Below the pieces are notes generated by a model. That model saw nothing but the letters and a program-made list of their open reading frames with translations. It was not told the DNA's origin and ran no database searches. From Candidatus Sumerlaeota bacterium (GTDB taxonomy: Bacteria > Sumerlaeota > Sumerlaeia > JAPLSS01): a stretch of 32,897 bases of DNA. Both the position numbers and the translations under genes were made by a program. Where the stretch lies: the NCBI GenBank assembly GCA_026398515.1, contig JAPLSS010000758.1, positions 1-32,897 on the forward strand, in the 5' to 3' direction. Below are positions 15,738 through 17,855 of the stretch, one piece after another; the stretch's first letter is position 1, and every line of letters starts with the position of its first letter.

Positions 15738-15945
15738 CGCCCCGCAGGGGCCGACCGCGCGTAGCCGGGGGCGCAGGCGAAGCCAAGCCCCCGGCAACGA
15801 TCGCCCCTGCCGGAGCCCCAACGGGGCGACAGATTCCCGCGGCATGACTTCTGTCGCCCCTTAGGGGCTTTCGGGTTGGAGGTGCGGTCCGGGGGCTTGG
15901 CTTCGCCTGCGCCCCCGGCTACGCGCTGTCGGCCCCTGCGGGGCG
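15738..15945. repeat. 208-bp nested palindrome with 57-bp arms
   Basis: Arms 15738-15794 and 15889-15945 are inverted copies of 57 bp with a single mismatch. The 94-bp centre holds a second inverted pair around GGGGCGACAG and CTGTCGCCCC, with flanking AGCCCC/GGGGCT. The whole is a palindrome inside a palindrome, and each arm itself contains short hairpins such as CCCCGCAGGGG. Too long for an ordinary terminator; best read as a composite dispersed repeat. Confidence 0.9.
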
Positions 15946-16010
15946 TCAACGATACGGCATTCCTGAATCCCGGCGCCGAGCTACGTGGCGGGACGCGCCC
16001 AACACGCTCC

Positions 16011-16225
16011 GGGTGCACGACATGAATGGGGGTTTCCGTCTCCGAAATGCAGATGCCTATGAAAAACCCCAATGAATCAGGGGGTCAGTTTCCTTGACTT
16101 GGAACGCGATGAGCACCCAGAGCGCCGATTTCCAGGGAAAACCAGGCTGTGTAGTAGAGCTTACAGTACAAGAGGCACGGGAATCCTAAGAGATCTGCGT
16201 AGACCCCCATTCATGTCGTGCACCC
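16011..16225. mobile_element. MITE-like element with 23-bp TIRs and 9-bp target duplication
   Basis: The element is 215 bp. Its ends 16011-16033 and 16203-16225 are perfect inverted repeats of 23 bp (outer end GGGTGCACGACATG). It is flanked on both sides by the direct repeat ACACGCTCC (16002-16010 and 16226-16234). Perfect terminal inverted repeats plus a target-site duplication are the mark of a transposed DNA element. It is too short to encode a transposase, so it is non-autonomous. A 9-bp duplication is usual for several IS families, including IS4-type and IS1, so the helper cannot be named. The right end lies 26 bases before the -35 box of the pseudopilin promoter. Confidence 0.85.
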
Positions 16226-16251
16226 ACACGCTCCGTCGGTCGCTTTCCTGA

Positions 16252-16280
16252 TTGACAAAATGCTTCCGGTGGGATAAAAG
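16252..16280 (+). promoter_or_regulatory. Sigma70-type promoter of the first pseudopilin gene
   Basis: Perfect -35 TTGACA (16252-16257), 17-base spacer, -10 TAAAAG (16275-16280). It is 58 bases upstream of the start codon and just beyond the MITE-like element. The second pseudopilin has a comparable promoter. Confidence 0.65.
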
Positions 16281-16338: not shown

Positions 16339-16995
16339 ATGTTGTGGACCGATGGAAAGTGGCGGGGGAGGGCCTTTACCCTGATTGAATTGCTGATCGT
16401 CGTGGCGATCATCGCCATTTTGGCGGCGATCGCGGTGCCGAACTTCCTCGAGGCGCAAGTTCGGTCGAAGGTGTCGCGGGCCAAGTCGGATCAGCGCTCG
16501 CTGGCCACCGCCATCGAAGCCTATGCCGTGGACTGGAACCGGGCGCCGGTGTCGAACAAGGAAGGAACGAAGACGGGGCCCGCCTGCGTGGCCTATACGG
16601 ACAAGAACTATTGGAGCAACATCTTGGCGCAGTCGAAACTGACGACTCCGGTGGCCTACATCAGCGCGATTCCCATGGACGTGTTCAAGTTCGCCGGCGT
16701 GGTCAATCTGAAGTCGGGAAATCCCGGCTACGGCGACTGGTTTGGGTATGAGACCTTCTTGTGCAATAATCTCAACAACAATCACAAGACGGCGCACGCG
16801 ATGGGCTACGCCTGGTCTCTGGAAAGCCCCGGCCCGTCGAGGAACACCGGGGGCAACGTCACGGGGATTCTTATTGGGGATCCCAACGCCAATCCGGGCA
16901 CGACGAGCTACGCCTACGATGCAACGAACGGAAAGGTGTCGTGGGGCTCTATCATCCGCACGATCAAGGGCATCTTCTCCGTGGCGGGGTCGTGA
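16339..16995 (+). CDS. Pseudopilin-like protein with prepilin methylation motif (copy 1)
   Basis: A 218-residue type IV pilin/type II secretion pseudopilin-like protein. The class III signal is RGRAFTLIELLIVVAII with the cleavage site before Phe13 and mature Glu5 at residue 17, followed by a hydrophobic helix to about residue 35. The residue before the cut is Ala12 rather than the usual Gly. The C-terminal part contains aromatic and Asn/Gly-rich segments and ends KGIFSVAGS. The start at 16339 follows GGAGGGGGAGAAG; the in-frame extension upstream lacks a site. It is a paralogue of the next gene (same N-terminus, same SWG-IRT-KGIFSV end). No other secretion or pilus gene is nearby, so these may be stand-alone surface or sheath proteins; function unknown. 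Confidence 0.88.
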   Translation: MLWTDGKWRGRAFTLIELLIVVAIIAILAAIAVPNFLEAQVRSKVSRAKSDQRSLATAIEAYAVDWNRAPVSNKEGTKTGPACVAYTDKNYWSNILAQSKLTTPVAYISAIPMDVFKFAGVVNLKSGNPGYGDWFGYETFLCNNLNNNHKTAHAMGYAWSLESPGPSRNTGGNVTGILIGDPNANPGTTSYAYDATNGKVSWGSIIRTIKGIFSVAGS

Positions 16996-17025
16996 TTCGC
17001 GCCGCAACGCGCTGGGTTGGACTTC

Positions 17026-17060
17026 AAGGGGGAAGCGGGCGAGCCGCTTCCCCCTTGTTG
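17026..17060 (+). terminator. Rho-independent-like terminator after pseudopilin 1
   Basis: Perfect 13-bp stem AAGGGGGAAGCGG / CCGCTTCCCCCTT with loop GCGAG (17026-17056), ending in TT then GTTG. The U-tract is weak, but position and its twin after the second pseudopilin support the call. Confidence 0.7.
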
Positions 17061-17119
17061 CGTTCAGGGCTTCCGTTGTCCTCCGAATGCCTTGCGGCGC
17101 ATGCGAATGCAAGATCCAA

Positions 17120-17149
17120 TTGACATTTCTCGCCCCAAAGTGCTACAAG
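17120..17149 (+). promoter_or_regulatory. Sigma70-type promoter of the second pseudopilin gene
   Basis: Perfect -35 TTGACA (17120-17125), 18-base spacer, -10 TACAAG (17144-17149), 61 bases before the start codon. The spacer differs from that of copy 1, so only the -35 box and geometry are shared. Confidence 0.6.
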
Positions 17150-17210
17150 TGACGCAGTTGGATTCAGAAGATCGTAAAGCATCCATCTTTTGCGAGGGGA
17201 GGGCAGGGAG

Positions 17211-17855
17211 ATGTGTGTCGGATGGAGACGGGGTTTTACTCTCATTGAGCTGTTGATCGTGGTGGCGATCATCGCCATTTTGGCGGCAATCGCGGTGCCG
17301 AATTTTCTGGAGGCGCAGACACGGTCGAAGGTGTCGCGGGCCAAGGCGGATCAGCGCACTTTCGCCACGGCGAACGAGGCGTACGCGGTGGATTGGAATC
17401 GGTGCGCGTTGGCGAACAACGAATATGGGAAAGTTGGTCCCCCGAATTGCGTGGCCGATCCCACTGACCCGCGGTGGGACAACGCGTACGCCCAGTCGCG
17501 CCTGACCACCCCGATCGCCTACATCACTTCGCTGGTCAAGGACCCCTTCAAAGCCTCCAGCGGGGTATGGAACTCGAATACGGGCCTGCCGGGGCATGGC
17601 GTCTATATGACCTATCATGCCTTTGTCTGCTCGGCTCTCAACAACAACCACAAGCAGGCATACTCCCAAGGCTACACCTGGTGGCTGAGCAGCGACGGCC
17701 CGGCGCGAAACACCGCGGGCAACCCTACACAAATCCTGCTGGGGATCGCCAACCCCGGGCAGACCGAGTGCGCCTATGATCCAACCAATGGCACGATGTC
17801 GTGGGGCTGGGTCATCCGCACGAACAAAGGCATTTTCTCCGTGCCCGGATCGTGA
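17211..17855 (+). CDS. Pseudopilin-like protein with prepilin methylation motif (copy 2)
   Basis: A 214-residue paralogue of the preceding protein. The prepilin signal is canonical: RRGFTLIELLIVVAII with Gly8 before the cut and mature Glu5 at residue 13. The first 60 residues after the cut are almost the same as copy 1, including SKVSRAK-DQR and EAYAVDWNR. The middle diverges and the end SWGWVIRTNKGIFSVPGS again matches. The start at 17211 is preceded by AGGGAG; an in-frame TTG at 17190 is less likely. The pattern (conserved ends, variable middle) suggests related but not redundant surface subunits. Promoter and terminator are its own. Confidence 0.88.
   Translation: MCVGWRRGFTLIELLIVVAIIAILAAIAVPNFLEAQTRSKVSRAKADQRTFATANEAYAVDWNRCALANNEYGKVGPPNCVADPTDPRWDNAYAQSRLTTPIAYITSLVKDPFKASSGVWNSNTGLPGHGVYMTYHAFVCSALNNNHKQAYSQGYTWWLSSDGPARNTAGNPTQILLGIANPGQTECAYDPTNGTMSWGWVIRTNKGIFSVPGS

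Follow-up and report, generated by a model that had tools for sequence, protein, structure and literature searches.

A gene-less element of 215 bp lies directly upstream of the promoter of a type IV pilin-like gene in the window analysed here, a contiguous stretch of 32,897 nucleotides. The locus raises the questions of what this element is and whether it came to lie beside the promoter by chance. An earlier note on this DNA had described it as a MITE-like element that was moved by a transposase encoded elsewhere and landed at this site. We conclude that it is probably a non-autonomous (MITE-type) derivative of the ISKra4 group (p-MULT 4, Mutator-like) that was placed by the promoter targeting of its transposase and not by chance.

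Structure of the element

The element begins with GGGTGCACGACATGAATGGGGGT, the perfect reverse complement of which forms its other end, and both ends are bordered by a copy of the 9-bp target duplication ACACGCTCC (Table 1). The similarity between the termini extends to 28 nt at 93%. All of these boundaries coincide with those in the earlier note, as does the finding that the element has no coding capacity, its longest stop-to-stop stretch being about 54 codons. The G+C content is 53% for the whole element and 51% for its interior, compared with 65% for the window. A scan with a strict promoter pattern gave no match within the element.

Within the window, no other inverted pair of 16 nt or more, separated by 60–600 nt, is bounded by a direct repeat of 8–10 nt. 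As a control, 40 Markov shuffles yielded 3 inverted 16-mer pairs, none of them with a duplication. Because its strong inverted ends adjoin a promoter and it folds better than shuffled sequences (z = −5.8), the structure might be read not as a transposon but as a palindrome with a regulatory or RNA function in the pilin operon, although the folding effect is due to the inverted ends themselves. This reading is highly implausible and largely refuted by the exactness of the 9-bp duplication and by the occurrence of the same type of end beside transposase genes, both on other contigs of this genome and in further genomes.

Table 1. Coordinates of the element, the adjoining promoter and related features. 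Positions refer to the window unless a locus is named.
Feature	Position	Strand	Remark
Left copy of the target duplication, ACACGCTCC	16002–16010		9 bp
MITE-type element	16011–16225		215 bp
Left terminal inverted repeat	16011–16033	+	23 bp, perfect; extended by 2 bases, identical to the right end of the C416 ISKra4 copy
Interior	16034–16202		169 bp, non-coding; no similarity to the IS or to any other sequence compared
Right terminal inverted repeat	16203–16225	−	23 bp, perfect; promoter-facing
Right copy of the target duplication	16226–16234		9 bp
−35 hexamer TTGACA	16252–16257	+	26 nt past the element end, 17 nt past the duplication
Probable −10 hexamer TAAAAG	16275–16280	+	17-nt spacer
Type IV pilin-like (pseudopilin) gene	16339–16995	+	Pfam N_methyl; N-terminal methylation motif; start and ribosome site read directly
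C416 transposase gene	L011:8512–9822		436 codons
End matching the element	L011:9823–9847		directly behind the C416 transposase gene

Promoter and pseudopilin gene

The pseudopilin gene starts with ATG at 16339, 3′ of the arrangement TTGACA-N17-TAAAAG, and the −35 box is at the distance from the right end that the earlier note had reported. Since the register of the insertion spares the promoter core, a change in pseudopilin expression is possible at most; it could follow from the displacement of regulatory sequence further upstream.

Two other features of this region were observed. Two pseudopilin genes lie in tandem (16339–17855), are 70% identical over 620 nt and have numerous paralogs genome-wide. 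Just 5′ of the element is a separate 208-bp palindromic repeat (15738–15945) with arms of 57 nt that are 98% complementary. Partial or full matches to it at roughly 70–97% identity were found at about 16 other sites in the genome, which makes it the true multicopy repeat of this intergenic region.

Ends shared with an ISKra4 transposase gene

The genome that contains the element is a 7.6-Mb draft in 1012 contigs, 93% complete. The full element is present in one copy, which is why we call it a MITE-type element and not a proven repeat family, and its end occurs in two additional places, on contigs C416 and C859. On C416, an end identical to the terminal 25 bp of the element (25/25) lies directly behind a transposase gene. 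The encoded protein passes the NCBIfam ISKra4 model NF033572 (267.6 bits against a cut-off of 205, E = 2e-79) and falls below the cut-off of the ISLre2 profile (87.3 against 200 bits). Its presumed catalytic DDE residues D190, D278 and E389 and a DxxH motif at 299–302 are in invariant columns in a comparison with three annotated ISKra4 proteins, from Tolypothrix, Pseudanabaena and Thiodictyon. A DUF6788 gene (orfA) precedes the transposase gene. We sought the left end of this copy upstream of orfA and found that a different transposase-like gene abuts orfA there instead. Having lost its left end, the C416 copy would be unable to move itself. Its transposase frame is intact, making the enzyme a candidate for the helper proposed in the earlier note; the 215-bp element would have been moved by this transposase or by a sibling that has been lost or is unassembled. 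On C859, a variant of the end (GGGTGTACGACATGAAAGTGGGT) is followed by a DUF6788 gene and by the beginning of a related transposase, which is apparently truncated.

The surroundings of the C416 copy (L011:6300–13400) form a cluster of mobile elements comprising the transposase-like gene, the left-truncated ISKra4 copy, pieces of a group II intron-like reverse transcriptase and an apparent further transposase. Three distant transposase relatives, about 25–30% identical, are encoded on other contigs of the same genome (L039, L040 and L042 on C881, C902 and C937).

We also searched 39 other genomes of the phylum, all from outside the family of the host genome, and found related ends beside transposase C-termini or DUF6788 genes in four (G001, G006, G014 and G022); a control pattern with the letters of the end in backward order had no match in any genome. 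The IS is multicopy in G022, so that contigs of this genome break inside it. Pairing left-end flanks (L080, L087) with right-end flanks (L046, L048) recovered the exact 9-bp duplications TTCGCGGCA and GCGTAATCC. Both pairable insertion sites thus show a 9-bp duplication, and the chance of any such pair is about 6e-5. Annotated ISKra4 copies in Tolypothrix, Pseudanabaena and Calothrix start with GGGTG and have duplications of 8–9 bp. In a relative, contig C204 of G009 carries an ISKra4-type end in two directly repeated copies, 41 bp apart (L086:2660–2723), possibly a remnant of nested insertions.

The 25-bp end shared with C416 and the 9-bp duplications made by related IS copies bear out the earlier view of a transposed, non-autonomous element, and its perfect ends are consistent with the recent movement proposed there. 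The search for the 23-bp end that the earlier note had suggested thus returned a transposase gene with the same end and no full copies elsewhere. A structure found once only was to have spoken against the proposal; the full element was indeed found once, and amplification as a family is therefore not supported, yet the shared end and the duplication stand regardless of copy number. A scan of genome contigs gave five matches, of which one is real (L033); the other four (L034–L037) look like coincidences in coding sequence and have no transposase match. Full copies were not found in plasmids, nor were exact end patterns in viral contigs. Relatives align only from inside the pseudopilin gene onward and none has an alignable upstream region in which an empty ACACGCTCC site could be recognized; within this limit, no copy with the same flanks was found in distant relatives.

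A solitary structure of this kind might also be left by an ISKra4 copy whose genes were deleted in situ while both ends survived, with no jump of a MITE; its ends and duplication would look alike. We regard such a deletion relic as unlikely: the 169-bp interior contains no trace of orfA or transposase, and the two ends of the element are identical, whereas in a relative, paired IS copies have left and right ends that diverge at several of the 23 positions.

A fixed distance to the promoter

The distance between the end of the element and the −35 hexamer equals the 9-bp duplication plus 17 nt. This offset of 26 nt, fixed beforehand by the element, was then looked for at 31 further end-like junctions of the phylum. 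TTG occurs at exactly 26 nt in seven of them, against 0.5 expected (P about 6e-7): at C859 (TTGACC), at four junctions in G022 (TTGACA, TTGACC, TTGACT and TTGCGC), and in G014 (TTGCCT) and G001 (TTGTGC). The mean promoter score peaks at the same offset (z = 5.1), with the promoter-facing end of the MITE excluded. The junction set contains some chance end matches, which weaken the signal rather than create it. Where the side of the end is known, the register is present at 6 of 7 left (orfA) ends and at none of 6 right ends (Fisher P = 0.005).

These data bear on whether an ISKra4 MITE could simply have come to rest beside a promoter, in a lineage that has no promoter preference and owes its intergenic placement to selection alone. 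Many junctions, namely all six right ends and several uncertain ones, lack a promoter at the register, as might be expected of such chance landing, and few independent lineages contribute. We nevertheless consider it improbable given the exact peak at a single offset, its restriction to left ends and the published precedent in the ISKra4 group (PMC3942029). A register of a single base is not explained by selection for intergenic sites. Since the element has ISKra4-type ends and related copies lie at the same distance from promoters, its position was probably set by the enzyme. The earlier statement that the element landed next to a promoter holds for its position, for which insertion targeted to a fixed register is the better explanation.

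In the targeted insertion that we favor, an ISKra4 transposase acting in trans would recognize both identical 23-bp ends and make a staggered cut of 9 bp in the target, leaving ACACGCTCC on either side. Sites chosen by its lineage would lie upstream of housekeeping-sigma promoters at a constant distance, which the transposase might sense by contacting the promoter DNA or the RNA polymerase bound to it; insertion at this distance would spare the promoter core and the 26 nt upstream of it.

Several observations stand against this explanation: (i) The full element is single-copy, and several copies at different sites of the genome would be expected of an ISKra4 MITE; the shared ISKra4 ends, a duplication of 8–9 bp and the short length without a transposase gene do agree with one. 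(ii) No left end remains on the sole copy with an intact transposase. (iii) The interior of the MITE is unrelated to the IS. (iv) Autonomous copies face the promoter with their left end, and the ends of the MITE are both similar to the right end of the C416 copy. (v) The fixed distance upstream of the −35 box agrees with promoter-targeting p-MULT elements, but their published distance is 13–17 nt, not 26, and one junction, G001_L, has a −35-like site at 34 nt.

The evidence leans somewhat toward a broader proposal, that the ISKra4 lineage of this phylum targets promoters in a register of its own, placing its left end 26 nt from the −35 box, and that gene-less derivatives inherit the targeting. 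If so, no ISKra4 MITE with programmed placement upstream of promoters would have been described before this one. Its ends and a −35 register precise to one base tie a gene-less element to a promoter-seeking transposase family, and such a register would explain how elements of this kind accumulate beside promoters without breaking them. With its perfect ends, a substrate of 215 bp would also be convenient for asking whether promoters are found through contact with RNA polymerase or through DNA shape.

Comparison with known systems

Guerillot et al. (2014; PMC3942029) reported ends of 18–39 bp and repeats of 8 or 9 bp for the superfamily. In their account, TnGBS/ISLre2 and some of the ISKra4 group insert upstream of sigma-A promoters, with the −35 box 13–17 nt from the IR–genome junction. 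They proposed RNA polymerase as a route to promoter targeting and left open how the transposase finds promoters. With the ISKra4 group (p-MULT 4) our element has in common the family of the C416 transposase, ends starting with GGG and duplications of 8–9 bp, and several members of the group insert upstream of sigma-A promoters as the MITE does. It differs in being gene-less and in its distance to the −35 box, a discrepancy that may be real and specific to the lineage or may come from how the distance was counted. In ISCasp3 and in cyanobacterial (Nostoc) ISLre2 copies, used to calibrate the published distance, neither offset coincides with a clear promoter. The present lineage has its left end toward the promoter, whereas promoters on both sides were described for 13 promoter-targeting ISKra4 ISs, members with nearly perfect ends (PMC3942029). 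In TnGBS/ISLre2 (p-MULT 3) it is the right end that faces the promoter, and the C416 transposase scores far below the ISLre2 cut-off (87 vs 200 bits).

No ISKra4 MITE was found in our literature search, which was limited to open-access papers, and a review of bacterial MITEs names no ISKra4 parent (PMC10969869). Like MITEAba12 and the Correia elements (PMC10969869), the element is short and gene-less, has inverted ends and a target duplication and would be moved in trans; it differs from them in its ISKra4-type ends, 9-bp duplication, single copy and lack of a strict promoter pattern inside. The Pack-MULEs of plants (cited in PMC3942029) are eukaryotic and bear fragments of host genes, unlike the element described here, but they too are non-autonomous Mutator-like elements, and they prefer the 5′ ends of genes.
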